Of a DNA stretch of 37,845 bases, positions 15,084 through 37,845 are shown in pieces. The notes under the pieces are model-generated. The model made no database searches, was not told where the DNA came from, and saw only the letters and a list, made by a program, of their open reading frames with translations. A program made the position numbers and the translations under genes. This stretch comes from a virus. Location: the IMG/VR virus record IMGVR_UViG_3300006853_000713, positions 1 through 37,845 of that record; one strand, given 5' to 3'. Positions within the stretch are counted from its first letter, which is position 1; each line of letters begins with the position of its first letter.

Positions 15084-16892
15084 TTATGCTGCGACTTCCC
15101 AGAAGGATTTGCCGGGCGCGGCCTGCACAGTCGCCACCCCGATGCTCATCGCCAGGGACACCATGCCGTCGATGCGGCCCGTCGCTTTTGCCTTGTTGAA
15201 CATCCGGTGCCCCGTGCGATTCTCTTCGTAGATCACGCCGGCGGCACACGCCGTCATCACCGGATTGACCTCGATCGCGATCCGCTCTTCGAGCAATGCG
15301 GCTTCCAGCTTGTTGATCGAGTCCGGCATCCAGAGCACAAGCTCGTCCGCGCCGGTGTCTTCCTGCTTTACGTCGTCACGCTCGCCAATCTTGCGGCGGT
15401 TGAAGCCCTGCGGATGGACGACAGCGCCGGGCAACTCGGTGCCCTTCTCTGCCATCGCATCGAGCAGTTGCTCAAGCCCGTACTGGTCACACCCGATGAT
15501 CTGCGGCTGATACTTCGCGCAGATCGAAGGCAGCGCATCGGCGAGCCACGAATAGCGAATGCGCGGACCCGGCACGGCTTCCATGAAGCCTTGATCGACC
15601 CAGACGTCGTAGCGCGCCATGTCCGCTTTCGCGCGCTCCCGCAGCGTATCCTTCGGCGTCCAAAACCAAGTCTTACTGGCGAAGCGCCACTGATCCTTTT
15701 TGTTTTCCAGAAGCCATGTCAGCGTGAACGCCGTTAAGTCGCGAACGCGGGACAGGTCCAACCCCCCATAGCAGGGAATTTCGCGACGAAGCATTTCGTC
15801 GGGATCAAAGGCCTTTGCTCCGGTTGCCTGGCACGCCAGCCATATGCGTTTCGGGATCGCCGAGATTTCGCTCTGGGTCCACTGGCAAAAATTCAGCCGG
15901 CGAACCATCCCCTCTTTCGAGGGCATCCCCTTTGCTTCCGCGACCTGCTCCCGGATGTAATCGATCTGAATCGACACGCCGAGATTCGGGTTGACCTTGA
16001 TCCAGCACGCCTCGTCTTCGAACGGCTCTTCGCCTTCATCAAGCGCGCAGACGTAAGCGAACCACGTATCCGACTCTTCGACCGTCAGCCGTTCATCGCC
16101 GTGCACGACGGCGATCGAATATTCGTGCTCTGCCCAGCAAACCGATTTTCGATCAAAGCCTGAATTTGTGATCTCGAAGATCAGCGCCTGCTGGTTGCCC
16201 TTGGTGCCGGCGCGCAGCATTTCGATGACGCTATTGTTCGGGTGCTCGTGGATCTCGTCGATCAGCGCGCATAGCGGCCGGATGCCCGACTTGCCTTTCT
16301 TGTCCGACGAGATCGGCTTGAAGAAGGAACCCGACCTCGGATGCGTCAGCTCGATGACCGGGTTCTCGCCCTTGTGGCCCAGCCTCGCCTGCAGGGCTGG
16401 TGACCGCTCCCACATCGCGACCGCGTCACGGAACAGGATGTTCGCCTGATCCATGTCGGTCGCCGCGGAGTAGACTTCCGCGCGCAGCTTTTTGGTGAAG
16501 CCGTGCATGTAGTGGCCGATGCCGGCCGCCATCGGCGACTTGCCGGAACCCTTGCCAATCTCGCAATACCCGCGGCGGAATCGCCGAAAGCCCTTCGCGT
16601 TTTTCCATCCGAACAGCGAGCCGATGATGAACGCCTGCCAAGGCTGCAGGATGAACGGGACGGCCTTGCTGGTTGCTACACCCTCGTCGCCTTTCTCTTC
16701 GATCTCGACCGTGAGCACGGTCGCGAAGAACCGGATGGCGCGTTGTGCTTCCTCGACATCGAACCGCAGCCCGCGCTGGCCACCGATCTCCAAATCTTTC
16801 AGGTGCCGCCGGCAAGCGGCGCGGACGTGCGGCCCCGCGATGATCTCACGCTTGACGACAGCGACCGCATAGGCGGTCGTTTGATCTTCCAC
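15084..16892 (-). CDS. terL: Terminase large subunit
   Basis: 602 residues, GTG start. The ATPase domain has Walker A GKGSGKS at residues 113-119 and Walker B LCALIDE at 207-213, followed by the nuclease domain with GGLDLSRVRDLTAFTL and IIGCDQYGLEQLLDAM as acidic clusters. The C-terminal GRIDGMVSLAMSIGV is a typical large-terminase ending. The length fits the HK97-type (Terminase_1-like) family. It packages the genome into proheads through the portal and cuts concatemers. Spacing to the small terminase is 3 bp, to the portal 15 bp. Confidence 0.95.
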   Translation of the reverse strand: MEDQTTAYAVAVVKREIIAGPHVRAACRRHLKDLEIGGQRGLRFDVEEAQRAIRFFATVLTVEIEEKGDEGVATSKAVPFILQPWQAFIIGSLFGWKNAKGFRRFRRGYCEIGKGSGKSPMAAGIGHYMHGFTKKLRAEVYSAATDMDQANILFRDAVAMWERSPALQARLGHKGENPVIELTHPRSGSFFKPISSDKKGKSGIRPLCALIDEIHEHPNNSVIEMLRAGTKGNQQALIFEITNSGFDRKSVCWAEHEYSIAVVHGDERLTVEESDTWFAYVCALDEGEEPFEDEACWIKVNPNLGVSIQIDYIREQVAEAKGMPSKEGMVRRLNFCQWTQSEISAIPKRIWLACQATGAKAFDPDEMLRREIPCYGGLDLSRVRDLTAFTLTWLLENKKDQWRFASKTWFWTPKDTLRERAKADMARYDVWVDQGFMEAVPGPRIRYSWLADALPSICAKYQPQIIGCDQYGLEQLLDAMAEKGTELPGAVVHPQGFNRRKIGERDDVKQEDTGADELVLWMPDSINKLEAALLEERIAIEVNPVMTACAAGVIYEENRTGHRMFNKAKATGRIDGMVSLAMSIGVATVQAAPGKSFWEVAA

Positions 16893-16895
16893 GGC

Positions 16896-17420
16896 TCAAT
16901 CGAACTCGGCGGCGGGGTCGAAGAGATCGGCCTGGCCCGGCGCCATGTTCCTCTCGTCGGTCGGGGTAAGCCCGAACATCGCCACCAGCGATCGCCACTG
17001 CCGCCACGCCTCGTTCATCTGCGCGACGTGCGGATGACTCTTGAGCTGGATCCCGTTCCGGCCCTCCACCATGTAGATCTCGGCATCGAGCCCGGGCGTG
17101 CCGGCAACGCGAGTGGCGCCGGCCTCAAGGTCGACGTCGTTTGCGGCGAAGAAAGCGCGGAACGCGCGCAGCCGCAGATTGACCCGCACCAGCTCAAGCA
17201 CCGCATCGACGAAGTGAGGCTTGAGCCGATCGAGGATCGGGTCGGCGAGCTGCCCGGCGATCCGGCCCCACTCGCGTTTCTCATCGTCAGTCAGTTTCTT
17301 CGGCCGCAACTTCAGCGCCAGTCGCCGCGCCCGGTCCTTGCGCGACTTCTCGTTCGCTTCGACACTCGCCCCTTTCATCGGAACGACGGTGCCGAGCTTT
17401 GGCTTGGCTCCCCTCATCAC
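16896..17420 (-). CDS. terS: Terminase small subunit (P27 family)
   Basis: 174 residues with GTG at 17420 or the ATG immediately after it. An upstream in-frame TAG rules out a longer start. After a basic N-terminus comes the helical region LTDDEKREWGRIAGQLADPILDRL..., characteristic of P27-type small terminases, then ...FAANDVDLEAGATRV and KSHPHVAQMNEAWRQWRSLVAMFGLTPTDE, in which the MNEA..W..FGLTP pattern is a strong family mark. It recognises the packaging site and recruits the large subunit. Ends 3 bp before the large terminase. Confidence 0.93.
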   Translation of the reverse strand: MMRGAKPKLGTVVPMKGASVEANEKSRKDRARRLALKLRPKKLTDDEKREWGRIAGQLADPILDRLKPHFVDAVLELVRVNLRLRAFRAFFAANDVDLEAGATRVAGTPGLDAEIYMVEGRNGIQLKSHPHVAQMNEAWRQWRSLVAMFGLTPTDERNMAPGQADLFDPAAEFD

Positions 17421-17530: not shown

Positions 17531-17887
17531 TCACCTAATTCGATTTGCTGGGTGTTTCTGATCGAGAGGCCACCCATCAAGGCCTACCTCACCACTGTAG
17601 CCACGCGACTCTTCAGCCTGCTTGGCACTGTCATGGTGGGGCTTACACAAGGATTGCCAGTTGTTGTCTGTGTCCCAGAATAGAACCTGATCACCCTTAT
17701 GCGGGATGATGTGGTCGACCACGGTGGCGGCCACGACCTTGCCCTGGGCTTGGCACATAACGCACAGCGGATGGCTGGCTAGGTAGGTAGCCCGAGCCTT
17801 GTCCCAGCGCCTGGTGTAGCCCCGCGCGCGTGCGCTACCCCTGTTCTCGAACCCCATACTAAAGGGGCCGCTGCAGTTGATGTCCAC
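17531..17887 (-). CDS. HNH endonuclease, packaging-associated
   Basis: 118 residues from GTG at 17887; an ATG at residue 11 (17857) is an equally possible start. The full HNH signature is present: CVMC (Cys42, Cys45), VDHIIPH (Asp58-His59), a central NN at 75-76, and CKPHH (Cys81, His84, His85). The fold binds a divalent metal and nicks or cuts DNA. Directly upstream of the small and large terminases, it matches the HNH proteins known to be needed for cos cleavage together with the terminase in HK97-like phages. The neighbourhood strongly favours that role over a homing endonuclease. Confidence 0.88.
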   Translation of the reverse strand: MDINCSGPFSMGFENRGSARARGYTRRWDKARATYLASHPLCVMCQAQGKVVAATVVDHIIPHKGDQVLFWDTDNNWQSLCKPHHDSAKQAEESRGYSGEVGLDGWPLDQKHPANRIR

Positions 17888-17963
17888 AGCGGCCCAAGTC
17901 TAGGGAGGAAACGCCCAAGGAGGGCTCAATCTAGGCCCGAAGGCCCACACCCTATGAACGCAA

Positions 17964-17997
17964 GAAGCCCGATGCAGGGGGGTGTGCACCGGGCTTC
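17964..17997 (-). terminator. Hairpin downstream of the small signal-peptide gene
   Basis: An 8-bp arm GAAGCCCG (17964-17971) pairs with CGGGCTTC (17990-17997), with further TGCA/TGCA pairing inside and an 8-nt G-rich loop. Read on the minus strand it follows the gene at 18027-18368 and is followed by TTGCGTT, a weak T-rich tail. A leaky intrinsic terminator is the simplest reading. Confidence 0.5.
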
Positions 17998-18026
17998 ATC
18001 ACGGAGGGGTTCAATCGGTATCGGCG

Positions 18027-18368
18027 TCAGGCGGCAAGGCGCCGAACGTGGCTGGACCTCCAGCCAGCCAAAGACGTAGGACGCACCGCAGCGCCGGAGG
18101 CGCGGGGCTTCATCGCAACGGGACGGAAGGAGGGGAATGTGCGCTTGGGCTCGATATGCGCCACCGCTGCGGGCAGCACGAACATGGGGGCATCCACGAT
18201 CATATCGAAGATGTCGAGGCCGTAGCCCCAAGCATAGTCGCCGGTCGCGGTCGTTCGATCGGGATAGTCGAGATTGCTTGCCGTGACGGTCGAGTTGATC
18301 GACATCGTGACCGCAAGGGCCATACCGACGATCATTCCCAACCTCAGGCCAAATCTGCCGTAGGCCAT
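18027..18368 (-). CDS. Small exported or membrane-anchored protein of unknown function
   Basis: 113 residues. The N-terminus MAYGRFGLRLGMIVGMALAVTM is a basic segment followed by about 15 hydrophobic residues, then a possible cleavage region ...STVTAS. It is either a secreted protein or one anchored at the inner membrane. The rest shows no motif I recognise; the C-terminal half is basic. Codon third positions are mostly G or C, and GGAG lies about 9 nt before the ATG, so the frame looks real. It sits alone between two hairpins, upstream of the HNH and terminase genes. Confidence 0.55.
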   Translation of the reverse strand: MAYGRFGLRLGMIVGMALAVTMSINSTVTASNLDYPDRTTATGDYAWGYGLDIFDMIVDAPMFVLPAAVAHIEPKRTFPSFRPVAMKPRASGAAVRPTSLAGWRSSHVRRLAA

Positions 18369-18431
18369 AGGGGAAACTCCGGGTTTTAGGAAAAGCGAGA
18401 TTCTCCAAGGGGAGATACCCTATGGAATCAG

Positions 18432-18545
18432 AAACCCCGACCTTTGGGGGCCGGGGTTTGTAAGCAGCAGCACGGGCAAATGCCCGTTTCTGTAGTGGCC
18501 TTGGCCACCGTTGAGGGCTTTGGCGAAGGGCCTCGCTGGGCGAGG
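18432..18545 (-). terminator. Cluster of three hairpins after the NusG-family gene
   Basis: Three inverted repeats stand between the NusG-type gene and the next minus gene: AAACCCC/GGGGTTT (18432-18459), ACGGGC-AAAT-GCCCGT (18472-18487), and CCTCGC-tgg-GCGAGG (18531-18545), the last starting 8 bp after the stop codon at 18553. On the minus strand the first ends GGGGTTTCTGATT; on the plus strand the second is followed by TTTCTGT. This looks like a multi-part terminator block separating the early from the late transcript. Confidence 0.55.
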
Positions 18546-18552
18546 TCGTTCG

Positions 18553-19152
18553 TTACATCGCCTCAATCTCGGACGCCGGTACGTAGACCTTGGTCGTGCG
18601 TCCGAACAGCTTCACCACCTCAACACCGATTCGGGTCTGCGAAGCAATCTCGACCACAGTACCAGTCCCCCATGAATATCCGATCAGTGGGTCGGTGAAC
18701 TCGACCCTCTGACCGACCTTGAACAGCACACCTTTGCGCTCCGGAGGAAGGTTCAGCTTGGCCTCGATCACCCGGATGGTCTCGATCTGGTCCTTGCTCA
18801 ATCTGGCGATGTCGCCATCGGTCGTTTTCAGAAAACCATGCGAGCGGATGAAATCGAGCACATCATCTCGCCGAGGATGATCGATGAAACTCTCAGGCAC
18901 GAACAGCATCCCCGGTACTACAGCCGAGAGTGACGGAACGTGCGCCCGACCTCGATACCGAATCTGCCTCGTAAAGTGTGGCCAGTACGGCGTCAGGCCA
19001 AGCTTCTCATCCATCCAATCGGCGATCTTCCGCTCACGGCTGGCCTTGACCACCACAGCGCACCACCACGGGAACAGCACGGGCGCCGACTCTGGCTCCA
19101 CGATAACCGGCAGATATGCAGCAATCGGCTTGGTTTCCGTTCGTGCCAACAT
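18553..19152 (-). CDS. Phage NusG-family transcription elongation / antitermination protein
   Basis: 199 residues from the ATG at 19152, chosen because AGGAAGGGGAGAAGG stands directly before it; longer starts overlap the upstream gene. The N-terminal half is an NGN-type domain: PWWCAVVVKASRERKIADWM, with the WW-AV-V and R-E-K pattern of NusG, and PSLSAVVPGMLFVPE, matching the usual ...PLFPGYVFV strand. Residues about 145-199 form a KOW-like barrel: FKVGQRVEFTD, then GYSWGTGTVVEI and RIGVEVVKLFGRTTKVYVP, as in NusG (V-G-x-V-xVxxGPF... and xxxV-x-LFGR). Such proteins ride RNA polymerase. Lying between the replication and late genes and followed by hairpins, it is a good candidate regulator of late transcription. 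Confidence 0.8.
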   Translation of the reverse strand: MLARTETKPIAAYLPVIVEPESAPVLFPWWCAVVVKASRERKIADWMDEKLGLTPYWPHFTRQIRYRGRAHVPSLSAVVPGMLFVPESFIDHPRRDDVLDFIRSHGFLKTTDGDIARLSKDQIETIRVIEAKLNLPPERKGVLFKVGQRVEFTDPLIGYSWGTGTVVEIASQTRIGVEVVKLFGRTTKVYVPASEIEAM

Positions 19153-19172: not shown

Positions 19173-20378
19173 CTATGCTGCGGTATCGCAGAGCGTTCCG
19201 TCTTTTCGTGGTGGCCATGGCCATGGGATTCGGAGTCCGGGTTTTGCGACCTTCCAGTCGACGAACCGACCGGGCATCGTTTCTTTCTTGATCACCTCGC
19301 CGGTGAATACATTGTAGGGTTTTGCGTGGGCGAACTCGGACCATGAGCCGCATTGCTGCGAGTGCTCATCGGCAATCGCCCACGTCGCTGGATCTGATCC
19401 GTAGAACTGCGATAGCGCGAGTTTTGCTGGCGTGAGCGGCCTTGGCAACATCAGGCCCGATCCATGGTCGGGATAGCGCCGCGGCTGCGGATCGACCTCG
19501 CCACGGATTCGAGACAGCACGCACAGCGCCTTCCATTCCTCGCTGCCTACCGCGACGAACGTCGGCGGTTCAACGGCAACAGGATCAGGCGGACAGTGCT
19601 CGGACCACGTTGGCCATGCGCCGATCTCCCGAATGAACGTTTGCGCCGATGGCTTCGATGGTGGTTTCTTCTGGCGCAGGCGATGCGCGATCAGCCCGCG
19701 CGCCGCCTTGGTGCACTTGCCTCGCTCGTCAGGCGACAGCGCTGCGAACAGCTGCTGCGCCAGCGACACCCGCACGATCGGATCACCATCCGCCTCGAAT
19801 GCGGTTTTGAATTCCTGCCAGCCTTCACATTCCACATCCGCCGTGGTGCAGCCCCCCAAAGGGGGGTTGGGGGGAATCTTTTCTGGTTCAGGTTCAGAAG
19901 TTAGGCCCTCGCCCGAGTCAGAGGGCTGGCCGAGGGCTACCATAGGGCCAGCATCGTCCTGCTCTTCGCTTAGCCCTTGCTGGCAGCTAGGGCTAATTGG
20001 AGCGCCATCGCCAAGCGCCCTCGCCTCGATTACGTCGATATCGGCGTCGGTCAGCAGCCGTATCTCGTCGGTCGTTCGCTTGCCCTTGCCTTCGCCGTTG
20101 CGGCGGCCGTTGCCATCGATCCATTGCGGGAAGCGCGCCACCGCGCCGACGTGCTCCAGCCAAGCCAGCCGCTTGCGCACGGTGTCCGCCGACAACTCGG
20201 TGTCGTCGGACAGTTGCTCGATGCCGACGAAGCAGATGCCGTCCGGATTGACGTACAGCGTCAGCATGCAGAGCACGAGTTTGGCATAGGGATTCCCGAG
20301 CCGCAGGTTGCGCGCCCAGGAATGCGCCTCGTCGGCGGCAATGCGGCGCGGCCGCGGCTTGCGTGCTGCAACGTTCAT
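19173..20378 (-). CDS. Winged-helix replication protein
   Basis: 401 residues from ATG 20378, which overlaps the upstream stop as ATGA. The N-terminal part has a winged-helix: LVLCMLTLYVNPDGICFVGIEQLSDDTELSADTVRKRLAWLEHVGAVARF (about 36-85), the usual DNA-binding module of phage initiators and repressors of the helix-turn-helix replication type. It is followed by a low-complexity linker (about 125-185, rich in Pro, Glu, Ser) and a C-terminal segment of unknown fold. With the sliding clamp nearby, it is the most likely replication initiator or helicase loader. I cannot identify a catalytic site. Confidence 0.6.
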   Translation of the reverse strand: MNVAARKPRPRRIAADEAHSWARNLRLGNPYAKLVLCMLTLYVNPDGICFVGIEQLSDDTELSADTVRKRLAWLEHVGAVARFPQWIDGNGRRNGEGKGKRTTDEIRLLTDADIDVIEARALGDGAPISPSCQQGLSEEQDDAGPMVALGQPSDSGEGLTSEPEPEKIPPNPPLGGCTTADVECEGWQEFKTAFEADGDPIVRVSLAQQLFAALSPDERGKCTKAARGLIAHRLRQKKPPSKPSAQTFIREIGAWPTWSEHCPPDPVAVEPPTFVAVGSEEWKALCVLSRIRGEVDPQPRRYPDHGSGLMLPRPLTPAKLALSQFYGSDPATWAIADEHSQQCGSWSEFAHAKPYNVFTGEVIKKETMPGRFVDWKVAKPGLRIPWPWPPRKDGTLCDTAA

Positions 20379-20614
20379 GGTTCCCCGCACATCGGCGTGA
20401 GCCCATCCGCGCGTTCCCGATCCGCATATTTCCACATGCGATAGGGAGGCTCCGGTGACGGCGGATGGACTGTGACCTTGGTTATGCCGCAGCCGTTGAG
20501 GCAGGCGCGGTGCGTCTCATCGCATTGCGATGGGGTATCGGTGCGGGCGATCGATTTTGGCTCGCCCCAGCGATGACGGCGCGTTGGTGTCGGGAGGGAT
20601 TCGACGGCGGTCAT
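20375..20614 (-). CDS. Small cysteine-containing hypothetical protein
   Basis: 79 residues from ATG 20614, which overlaps the upstream stop (ATGA). The centre contains CDETHRACLNGC, and a further Cys lies close to the C-terminus (PMCGEP), so a small metal-binding fold is possible. The tail EPPYRMWKYADRER is tryptophan/tyrosine-bearing. I recognise no family. Tight coupling with both neighbours implies it is real and co-expressed with the replication gene that follows. Confidence 0.55.
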   Translation of the reverse strand: MTAVESLPTPTRRHRWGEPKSIARTDTPSQCDETHRACLNGCGITKVTVHPPSPEPPYRMWKYADRERADGLTPMCGEP

Positions 20615-21463: not shown

Positions 21464-21798
21464 TCCCCCTCAAGACGAATTGGCGGCGCTATCGTCGGTT
21501 GCCATTTCTTCACGTCTTCGAATTCGAGCCACTTGCCGCCGCCGAAACTGTTGTGCGGCCGCGCCGAAGCGATAAGAATCCCGAGAGGCTTCAGGCGTGC
21601 ACGCAACGCAGGCATCTCGTTTTCAACGGCGTGCGCCGGCATGTTGATCGCCTTCGCGATACCGCCAACGCCGATGGCACCTTGCGCGTACGCCAGCGCG
21701 TTGAAGATGTCCGCATGCAACCGGCACAGCGCGATGAGCTTGCCTTCGCGCTGCAGTTCGCCGGTTGCGTGGTTAAAGACAAAGGCCGGCGCGCTCAT
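21454..21798 (-). CDS. Small winged-helix-like hypothetical protein
   Basis: 114 residues. The pattern PAFVFNHATGELQREGKLIALCRLHADIFNALAYAQG, then GGIAKAINMPAHAVENEMPALRARLKPLGILIAS, looks like an OmpR-type winged helix: two N-terminal strands, a helix pair, and a recognition helix followed by a wing. ATG 21798 overlaps the preceding stop. No partner sensor or receiver domain is present, so it may act as a stand-alone DNA-binding protein. Confidence 0.5.
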   Translation of the reverse strand: MSAPAFVFNHATGELQREGKLIALCRLHADIFNALAYAQGAIGVGGIAKAINMPAHAVENEMPALRARLKPLGILIASARPHNSFGGGKWLEFEDVKKWQPTIAPPIRLEGECP

Positions 21799-22337
21799 CC
21801 GCTTGTCCCCGCATGTTCGGATTGTGTCTTGCCATGCGCGAACGCCGGCACATCGTCACCACATCCCGGCCCAACTTCACCCGGCTTTCCGGCCTTGGTG
21901 AACTGCTGCCAATGCTTCCAGCCGTGAGGGCAATGAAAGCCCCACTGCCGGATGCGGGGGCCGGTGATGAAGATCGTCCAGCACGGGCCGTCGTTGAGTT
22001 CAACGCGATGCGCCGCGCTCGCGAAGCGGAATTTCATCTGACCGGCGACGCGCGGCGTCCGCACGTTGATGCCGCCCTGCGGAATCGTGTGCTCGACGTA
22101 ACCGCCATCGATCAGCAGCGAGACATTCCACCAGGGATGATCATGCAGAGCGCGATCATCGTCCGAGCGCAGGAAGTGATGGAGGTAGATATTGAAGAAC
22201 GCATTTCGTGGGATCACGAACCATCGGCGCAGGTACGGGTCTTCTGCTGACCCGATGACAAAATCAGGATCGCGCCTCGCAACAAGGCGCATCATACGCA
22301 TACGCAACCACGCGGTGATGGGTGCGGGCAGATTCAT
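21795..22337 (-). CDS. Cupin-domain protein
   Basis: 180 residues from ATG 22337, chosen because it overlaps the preceding gene's stop (ATGA). The cupin metal-binding motif 1 is HDHPWW at residues 65-70, followed by NVSLLIDGGYVEHTIP. Motif 2 corresponds to AAHRVEL (His110) and CWTIFITGPRIRQWGFHC (about 119-136). Two His plus a third His fit a mononuclear metal cupin. Similar phage cupins have no established substrate. It sits among replication and nucleotide genes, so a nucleotide or DNA modification role is possible but unproven. Confidence 0.75.
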   Translation of the reverse strand: MNLPAPITAWLRMRMMRLVARRDPDFVIGSAEDPYLRRWFVIPRNAFFNIYLHHFLRSDDDRALHDHPWWNVSLLIDGGYVEHTIPQGGINVRTPRVAGQMKFRFASAAHRVELNDGPCWTIFITGPRIRQWGFHCPHGWKHWQQFTKAGKPGEVGPGCGDDVPAFAHGKTQSEHAGTSG

Positions 22338-22690
22338 TTCGCAATCCCCAGTTGGACCTTGGCAGCATGCCGACGCGCCCATTCCTCGCGCGGTATTGCC
22401 TGAATGCGCGCAAATTCCTTGTTCGCCTCAAGGTCGGCATTGACGCCTATGTTCTCGGCGAAGGTTTCAAGGGTGATCTGCGCCTGCCCGATCTCGCGCG
22501 GTAGAGTGCCTTGCTCGCGGCTATAGACGCGGTCGACAATGGCGCGGACCCGCTCAGGCTCAAGGCCGATGGCGTGCGCAACCTCGATGGCTTCTTCGAC
22601 GAAGCGCATGGCGCGCTCGGCCGGATCGGTCGCGACGGCGCCGAAGGTCGCTTCGGCCCACTTTAAGACGTGCCTTGCTCTGCGGCTCAT
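22334..22690 (-). CDS. MazG-like nucleotide pyrophosphohydrolase-related protein
   Basis: 118 residues. The helix ERAMRFVEEAIEVAHAIG carries the EExxE set (Glu32, Glu33, Glu36) of MazG-type enzymes, and REIGQAQITLETFAENIGV supplies a second helix with Glu75 and Glu79, as in the usual EEL-D...AxxxG pattern. The C-terminal NKEFARIQAIPREEWARRHA is a familiar ending. Members of this all-helical family hydrolyse (d)NTPs to NMPs. In phages they are thought to clean the nucleotide pool or alter alarmone levels. Overlaps the cupin gene downstream (ATGA). Confidence 0.72.
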   Translation of the reverse strand: MSRRARHVLKWAEATFGAVATDPAERAMRFVEEAIEVAHAIGLEPERVRAIVDRVYSREQGTLPREIGQAQITLETFAENIGVNADLEANKEFARIQAIPREEWARRHAAKVQLGIAK

Positions 22691-36636: not shown

Positions 36637-36839
36637 GCCGCCGACCCGCACGCTTCACGCAGGCGGACGTGGCCCGCGCCATCAAGGGCGCAAGGATGGC
36701 CGGCATTGAGGTTCGATCTGTGGAAATCGCCCGCGACGGCCGGATTTCCATCAAGGCCGGAAGCCCGCCGGTTGCGGAGGGCGACGATCTTGACCGAGAA
36801 TTGGCGGACTGGGAGGCGCGCCACTGTGGTCAAGGTTGA
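36633..36839 (+). CDS. Small integrase-associated hypothetical protein
   Basis: 68 residues from ATG 36633. RRPARFTQADVARAIKGARMAGIEVRSVEIARDGRISI is a pattern commonly seen right before alphaproteobacterial prophage integrases (a helix, then a short hairpin of strands). The C-terminus is acidic. Function unknown; possibly a directionality or DNA-bending partner. Overlaps both the HTH/GIY-YIG gene and the integrase. Confidence 0.6.
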   Translation: MSRRPARFTQADVARAIKGARMAGIEVRSVEIARDGRISIKAGSPPVAEGDDLDRELADWEARHCGQG

Positions 36840-37845
36840 GTTGAAGGGTATCCATACGGTCCACGCCCGCGGGCGCACGTACCGCTACGCCTGGCGCGGC
36901 GGTCCTGCCCTCAGCGGCGAGCCTGGAACGCCGGAGTTCAGCGCCTCTTATGCCGCCGCGATCGAGAGTCACAACGCGCCCGACACCAGCCGCTTCGCCG
37001 GCGTGGTCACCGCCTACAAGGCCAGCGCCGAATACAAGGGCCTCGCGGACTCGACCAAGAAGAACTGGGCGACGTGGCTCGATCGCATCTCCGAACACTT
37101 CGGCGAGTTGAGCGTCCGGCAATTCGACCGGCTCGACAAGATCCGGCCCATCATCCGCCAGTGGCGCAACAAGTGGGCCGAGACGCCACGGACAGCGGAC
37201 TACGGCATGCAGGTGCTGTCGCGCGTCTGCGCGCATGCGGTCGACCCGCTGGGCAAGATCGCCAGCAACCCTTGCGAGGGCATCAAGCGCCTTTACGAAA
37301 CCGACCGCTCCGAAATCATCTGGACCGACGCCGACATTGCCGAGATGAAAGCGGTGTGCTCCCCGGAGATGGCGCTCGCCATCGAGCTGGCGGGACACTC
37401 GGGCTTGCGCATGGGCGATCTGGTCAAGGTGGCGTGGTCGCACGTCGGCGAAGACGCGATCGTGCTGCGCACCGGCAAAAGCCGCCAGCGGCGGGAGGCG
37501 ATCGTGCCGCTCTACGACGGGCTGCGGGCGCTGCTGGAGCGCATCCCGAAGCGGGCCACTACGATCCTAACAAGCTCGCGCGGCAAGCCATGGACCACGT
37601 CAGGGCTGAGCACGGCTGTTCAGCGCGCGAAGGAAGCGGCGCATTGGGACGACAAGGATCTCAACTTCAACGATCTGCGCGGGACCGCGGCGACCAAGTT
37701 CTACGTCGCCGGCTTGAGCATCCGCGTGATCGCCGAGATCATGGGCTGGGAGGAAGAGACGGTCGAGAAGATCATCCGCCGCTACGTCGGTCGGACCGCT
37801 GCAATCAAGGCGACCATCGCCCACCTCAACGCGGCCAGAAAGTGA
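36826..37845 (+). CDS. int: Tyrosine integrase
   Basis: 339 residues from GTG 36826, overlapping the previous gene by 14 bp. The core-binding domain lies in about 50-155. Catalytic residues of the tyrosine family: Arg195 (SGLRMGD), Lys218 (TGKSRQ), Arg285 in NDLRG where the usual His of HxxR is replaced by Asn282, Trp308 (GWEEETVEKI, in place of the second His), and the nucleophile Tyr320 (IIRRYVG). The order and spacing are normal, so it is likely active, with variant residues at two histidine positions. The window ends exactly at its stop codon, so the attachment site lies beyond the edge. Confidence 0.9.
   Translation: MVKVELKGIHTVHARGRTYRYAWRGGPALSGEPGTPEFSASYAAAIESHNAPDTSRFAGVVTAYKASAEYKGLADSTKKNWATWLDRISEHFGELSVRQFDRLDKIRPIIRQWRNKWAETPRTADYGMQVLSRVCAHAVDPLGKIASNPCEGIKRLYETDRSEIIWTDADIAEMKAVCSPEMALAIELAGHSGLRMGDLVKVAWSHVGEDAIVLRTGKSRQRREAIVPLYDGLRALLERIPKRATTILTSSRGKPWTTSGLSTAVQRAKEAAHWDDKDLNFNDLRGTAATKFYVAGLSIRVIAEIMGWEEETVEKIIRRYVGRTAAIKATIAHLNAARK

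Follow-up and report, generated by a model that had tools for sequence, protein, structure and literature searches.

A NusG-family paralogue ahead of terminated late-operon leaders in temperate phages of Bradyrhizobium-like bacteria: a putative late-gene antiterminator

In phage lambda, Q is the last early gene, and a short leader RNA (6S) ends at the terminator tR′, directly ahead of the late genes. To our knowledge, no phage late antiterminator known so far (e.g. lambda Q) is a NusG homologue, and the NusG paralogues that have been studied work on operons of cells or plasmids. LoaP binds a UNCG-type hairpin in its leader (PMC12691694), the UpxY proteins of Bacteroides capsule operons are encoded at their own operon and prevent termination in its 5′ leader (PMC7819879), and RfaH reads the GCGGT bases of the ops element (PMC5995543). 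GafZ, which acts on the Caulobacter gene transfer agent, has a sigma-factor-like HTH, works with host NusG and is not described as a NusG paralogue (PMC11150451). As regards phages, rfaH-like genes on prophages have been remarked on (PMC7593976), a NusG-like factor was proposed to speed lysis genes in Helicobacter prophages (PMC11321410), and databases already hold phage NusG-like genes named antiterminators (PHROG 6386). In the open papers, to which our search was confined, we found no account of a NusG late-leader arrangement, nor of alpha-r8 RNAs, the family of which MmgR of Sinorhizobium is the studied member (PMC12559287), as phage late leaders.

The stretch of DNA analysed here, called the window, is 37,845 nt long (IMG/VR virus record IMGVR_UViG_3300006853_000713, positions 1 to 37,845) and, judged from its sequence, is a temperate phage. 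It carries an integrase gene and, all on the minus strand, the genes for an HNH endonuclease, the small (TerS) and large (TerL) terminase subunits, portal, protease and major head protein (Table 1). The gene of the NusG paralogue, with a strong ribosome site in front, lies 21 nt past a replication-initiator-like gene and closes the early/replication block, as an earlier note on this DNA had stated. After it, the order is a terminator hairpin with CATAGGGT, a small ORF, a second terminator hairpin with CATAGGGT, a UUCG hairpin, the alpha-r8 core, a terminator and the late operon. The earlier note had given the succession of hairpins, small ORF, further hairpin and late genes correctly, and the hairpins that it named do exist (folding z of -4.4 for 18430-18560 and of -5.9 for 17960-18005); it had overlooked the alpha-r8 element and both CATAGGGT copies, and it had put the beginning of the late operon at 17.5 kb, the actual start being the HNH ATG at about 17857. 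A longer HNH ORF, with a GTG start at 17887, begins within the terminator T2.

Table 1. Positions of the features discussed, numbered from the first letter of the window
Feature	Position	Strand	Remarks
Integrase	36706-37845		
Protein matching PHROG 4786, named cysteine dioxygenase (3e-63)	21795-22382	-	Within the early block
Replication-initiator-like gene	19173-20435	-	
NusG-family paralogue, 199 aa	18553-19152	-	NGN 30-127, KOW about 145-197
Two more GC hairpins	18460-18552	-	Directly 3′ of the NusG gene; in the hairpin cluster of the earlier note
First terminator-like hairpin (AAACCCCGGCC...GGTCGGGGTTTCT)	18432-18459	-	Then CATAGGGT at 18417-18424; unit copy 1 is 18417-18459
Small ORF, 113 aa, hydrophobic N-terminus	18027-18368	-	Inserted between two terminator-TAGGNT units
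Second terminator hairpin, T1	17964-17997	-	Then CATAGGGT at 17949-17956; unit copy 2 is 17949-17997
Leader hairpin GGGCC-UUCG-GGCC	17933-17950	-	Just ahead of the alpha-r8 core, where other phages have the GCGGTAG hairpin
suhB/mmgR (alpha-r8) sRNA-type element	17850-17932	-	GCCC-UCCUU-GGGC hairpin, UUUCCUCCCUAGACUU, terminator
Intrinsic terminator T2 of the alpha-r8 element	17865-17895	-	About 7 nt separate its end from the HNH start
HNH endonuclease, first late gene	17531-17857	-	ATG about 7 nt past T2
Terminase small subunit	16896-17420	-	Late operon
Terminase large subunit	15084-16892	-	Late operon; then portal, protease

Family searches with the product of the small ORF gave no real match. 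Genes for small, putatively exported proteins lie between the NusG gene and the late operon in the window, in L004 (2453-2854) and, as an antisense ORF after NusG, in L117 and L125; this insertion site is a moron-like slot.

The earlier note had read an NGN half and a KOW-like half from the translation of the paralogue gene, and had proposed HMM searches and structure prediction as checks; both support its reading. With the single sequence of the window protein, the match to Pfam NusG was weak (E 0.01), that to PHROG 6386, 'transcription antiterminator', reached 1.1e-9 and that to NCBIfam UpxY 5.6e-8 (32.9 bits, under the cut-off of 100); the NCBIfam LoaP model gave no match for the window protein, and other family members reach 4e-9 with it. 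PHROG 6386 was matched by 28/28 proteins of our family alignment A3, PF02357 (NGN) by 23/28 and PF00467 (KOW) by 8/28, and the profile of this alignment, compared with PDB structures, found E. coli NusG at 5.9e-30 and RfaH at 8.1e-13. The AlphaFold model of the window protein (pLDDT 86) has the NGN domain and a beta-barrel KOW domain, with strands at 149-198, and its best Foldseek matches were NusG structures (2e-8 to 4e-7). As for the alpha-helical KOW of the RfaH type, the single AF2 model shows the beta form only, and one model cannot show fold switching; the KOW domain retains the FGR motif of the housekeeping type. Host genomes carry a housekeeping NusG as well as the paralogue kind, and in the tree the four host NusG proteins form one clade (100/100) separate from the phage proteins. 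From the PHROG match, the PDB profile, the AlphaFold and Foldseek results and this separate housekeeping clade, we conclude that the window protein is a specialised NusG paralogue. In L029, L042, L076, L078, L060 and L105, the NusG-group members in the same slot match NGN alone in Pfam, and several NGN-only members end in a tail like ...RNQTLRKALGLS in place of the KOW domain.

Compared with the systems above, the locus resembles that of LoaP and the dfn/mln leaders of Bacillus in the pairing of a NusG paralogue with its own leader, in which a small hairpin and an intrinsic terminator are found, and its leader hairpin (GGCC-UUCG-GGCC) has a UUCG loop, a candidate for recognition by the window paralogue; it differs in that the window protein gives no LoaP match and that the targets would be phage late genes instead of antibiotic operons. 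With RfaH and ops the locus shares the fold, a NusG paralogue, a long foreign target operon and, in the leaders of many relatives, GCGGTAGCG, whereas the window KOW is modelled as a beta-barrel and not as alpha-helical, and the ops-like site is absent from the window and not NusG-specific. UpxY is the best NCBIfam match, but below its cut-off, and serves other operons in other hosts. The position of the last early gene and a terminated short leader RNA before the late genes are as in lambda with Q, 6S and tR′; Q, however, has no homology to NusG; it binds promoter DNA, and no such site is known at the window locus. With GafZ the locus would share the antitermination of a phage-like head/packaging operon in Alphaproteobacteria, although the window factor is itself a NusG paralogue. 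Finally, the RF00519 match, a conserved 10-mer (UUUCCUCCCU) and the terminator are those of the MmgR/suhB (alpha-r8) sRNAs, but in the window the element is the leader of a phage late operon, and its role in trans is putative.

We looked for this arrangement starting from the RNA and starting from the protein. For the RNA-first search, the 21-nt core GGGCGTTTCCTCCCTAGACTT alone was run against IMG/VR, which gave 102 loci, and paralogues at these loci were detected by an iterated NusG-family profile. A paralogue was found in 42/102 loci and in the window; it invariably lay on the strand of the RNA and upstream of it, at a distance of mostly 84-407 nt, with zero matches downstream or on the opposite strand of the RNA-first loci; this count includes close relatives, which are not independent events, and the proteins span several deep lineages. 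When only loci with at least 800 nt of upstream sequence were considered, the paralogue was present in 39/84, window included. HNH, TerS, TerL or portal genes lie downstream of many RNA-first loci. The protein-first search, a scan with the family alignment A2, gave 23 loci, 11 of them on new contigs; there the RNA core, counted as present at ≤1 substitution or one-base insertion/deletion, was found in 6, a decayed copy in 2 and none in 3. In three Bradyrhizobium/Tardiphaga genomes, 4/5 non-housekeeping NusG hits were <1 kb upstream of an alpha-r8 copy. Since several deep NusG lineages occupy the same slot, it is the slot, and not descent, that explains the link.

The Bradyrhizobium phages ppBeUSDA76-1 and ppBdUSDA122-1 both carry the NusG/alpha-r8 pair, their paralogues being annotated as 'ABC transporter substrate-binding protein' (WAX24340.1 of OP596613.1, in ppBeUSDA76-1) and 'hypothetical', respectively; among the INPHARED phages no relative of the window protein was found. 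The earlier note had called the arrangement uncommon, a view that does not hold for alphaproteobacterial phages and prophages, where it recurs in about 60 loci. The relatives, in dozens, are in Bradyrhizobium-like bacteria, and in most of them one of the terminators before the late genes copies a small RNA of the host.

A T1-type, terminator-like hairpin between gene and RNA was present in 36/43 NusG-linked loci (8% in shuffled sequence), and a T2-type one after the RNA core in 25/43 (5% in shuffled sequence), counted under a strict loop limit, so that longer loops escaped. The median gap from T2 to the next start codon was 10 nt in the NusG-linked loci, so that the space for a promoter past the last terminator, ahead of the first late gene, is small; where the alpha-r8 RNA is missing, as in L003 and L128, no more than about 20 nt separate the end of a T1-type terminator from the HNH start. 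In the window, CATAGGGT occurs only twice (0.27 copies expected), each time after a hairpin. We defined a terminator-TAGGNT unit as a terminator hairpin with TAGGNT 4-22 nt further on, and we counted these units in the 700 nt after the gene and elsewhere in the same loci. Precisely, they occurred at 1.15/kb downstream of NusG genes and at 0.0034/kb elsewhere (about 340 times less), an enrichment that is descriptive because the pattern was spotted in the same loci before counting. The unit was found in 44/64 loci, in tandem in six, window included, and also where alpha-r8 is missing (L003, L004, L174).

The TAGGNT motif may be part of a promoter or a pause/loading site. Column conservation ahead of the leader revealed no -35 element of a sigma-54/sigma-70 promoter, and the spacing from terminator stem to TAGG is mostly 11-12 nt and up to 19 nt. 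We also considered, and rejected, a hairpin strictly following each TAGGNT: only the units linked to alpha-r8 were more stably folded than shuffled sequence (mean z -2.1, n=20), which was not clearly so for those without alpha-r8 (mean z -0.7, n=12; background -0.1).

The alpha-r8 core occurs once in the window, and the element that holds it matches Rfam RF00519 with 53.8 bits (gathering score 41), a match that was also found in 8/9 of the relatives' loci tested. The RNA is missing or decayed in several phages that bear the gene, L002-L004 among them, which carry the closest relatives of the window protein, and it is present in other phages and in chromosomes that have no NusG paralogue. As each is found without the other, the alpha-r8 RNA is not a specific partner of the NusG paralogue, and we rejected the two as obligate partners; the RNA is a separable module, and what stays constant beside the NusG gene is the late operon together with the terminator-TAGGNT unit. 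L008, L018, L024, L053, L097 and others have stand-alone alpha-r8 (mmgR-like) RNAs with apparent TTGAC promoters, several of them right after capsid-type genes, which we read as phage-borne copies of the host sRNA family, independent of NusG. The alpha-r8 copies of Bradyrhizobium chromosomes (L137, L138, L139, L141) have the TAGGGTATGCGGTAG leader in common with phage late leaders, so that the phage and host versions seem to have been exchanged or to be of one origin. A 37-nt exact match to the alpha-r8 region was also present at 42325-42361 of PP395640.1 (Microcystis phage Mwe-JY08), and suggests that this record, named as a cyanophage, has an alphaproteobacterial host or is mixed.

We consider it fairly probable that the NusG paralogue is a late-gene processive antiterminator, which acts on the leader after its own gene. 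Made as the last early gene, it would travel on RNA polymerase and carry it, from a presumed start point, past the two terminator hairpins with CATAGGGT and past T2, with the transcription of the HNH-terminase-head-tail operon as the outcome. It would be loaded within the leader, where the candidate signals are the terminator-TAGGNT unit and the leader hairpin. Without the paralogue, polymerase would stop at these terminators, and the last of them would free a short alpha-r8-type RNA, in the manner of the lambda 6S RNA ending at tR′; as a guess, this RNA may act in trans on the host. An antitermination role is well supported by the conserved anatomy, namely the same strand, side and slot in dozens of very divergent phages, the terminators before the late genes and the almost complete lack of promoter space, and this anatomy suggests that these phages use NusG as the basis of a late-gene switch, in which they would differ from lambda with its Q. 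Thus, in the proposal of a NusG-type late antiterminator made by the earlier note, the paralogue call stood and the role is well supported, whereas the switching on of the late operon is what we infer from them.

The same anatomy could have other explanations. The terminators might do no more than close the early operon and a stand-alone phage alpha-r8 sRNA gene, with a paralogue that shields long phage transcripts from Rho or host NusG generally, and not at the leader specifically, and late genes transcribed from an activated promoter of their own, near TAGGNT or within HNH. The alpha-r8 elements that stand alone after capsid genes in other phages, with sigma-70-like promoters, are in favour of this, as are the host alpha-r8 copies with the TAGGGTATGCGGTAG leader and no NusG and the housekeeping-type FGR motif kept in the KOW domain; however, the strict co-location and strand would be left unexplained, and T2 ends a median of 10 nt ahead of the first late gene, and we regard this explanation as unlikely. 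With such a gap, the start of the late mRNA would have to lie in HNH or beyond it, unless T2 is read through. There may be a late promoter within HNH or past it, and we counted this against the antiterminator reading, along with the uneven occurrence of the alpha-r8 RNA and the family members in which no KOW domain is recognisable.

Loading of the paralogue at an ops-like element in the non-template DNA, as for RfaH, was considered because the leader of many relatives reads TAGGKTGTGCGGTAGCG, in which GCGGTAGCG corresponds to bases 2-10 of E. coli ops. GCGGTAG is present in 25/43 NusG-linked leaders, and GCGGT is retained in the 5′ arm even at the cost of a G-U pair with the 3′ arm. Against it, GCGGTAG is not present in the window leader, an identical ops-like leader is found in chromosomal Bradyrhizobium alpha-r8 copies with no NusG nearby, and the motif may simply be the 5′ hairpin of alpha-r8. 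On these grounds the ops-like leader is no evidence for RfaH-like loading, which we rejected as the main mechanism and hold to be quite improbable. It is also conceivable, though highly improbable in our view, that the paralogue modulates early/replication transcription, or couples transcription to translation, and that its place before the late genes reflects only the gene order of this phage lineage: its gene is adjacent to, and co-directional with, that of the replication initiator, but the slot is kept by deeply divergent NusG lineages, and terminator-TAGGNT units are a feature of the downstream side specifically.

The late antitermination proposed here could be combined with a second use of the leader, an extension that we put forward as rather doubtful. 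In the lysogen, a leader promoter would give a terminated alpha-r8 sRNA that tunes the carbon-storage/nitrogen metabolism of the host (lysogenic conversion), and on induction the paralogue, loaded at the terminator-TAGGNT unit or at the leader hairpin, would convert the same transcript into late mRNA. If true, this would be a NusG-type late switch doubling as a host-directed sRNA gene.

A phage group with late genes gated by its own NusG would, if confirmed, extend what is known both of phage late antiterminators and of NusG paralogues, and would offer in vitro studies a set of compact, ready-made target leaders. That a conserved alphaproteobacterial sRNA family is reused as a terminated leader raises the question of a common origin of alpha-r8 sRNAs and phage late leaders, and it is among the alpha-r8 leaders that copies of a host metabolic sRNA made by prophages could be sought.
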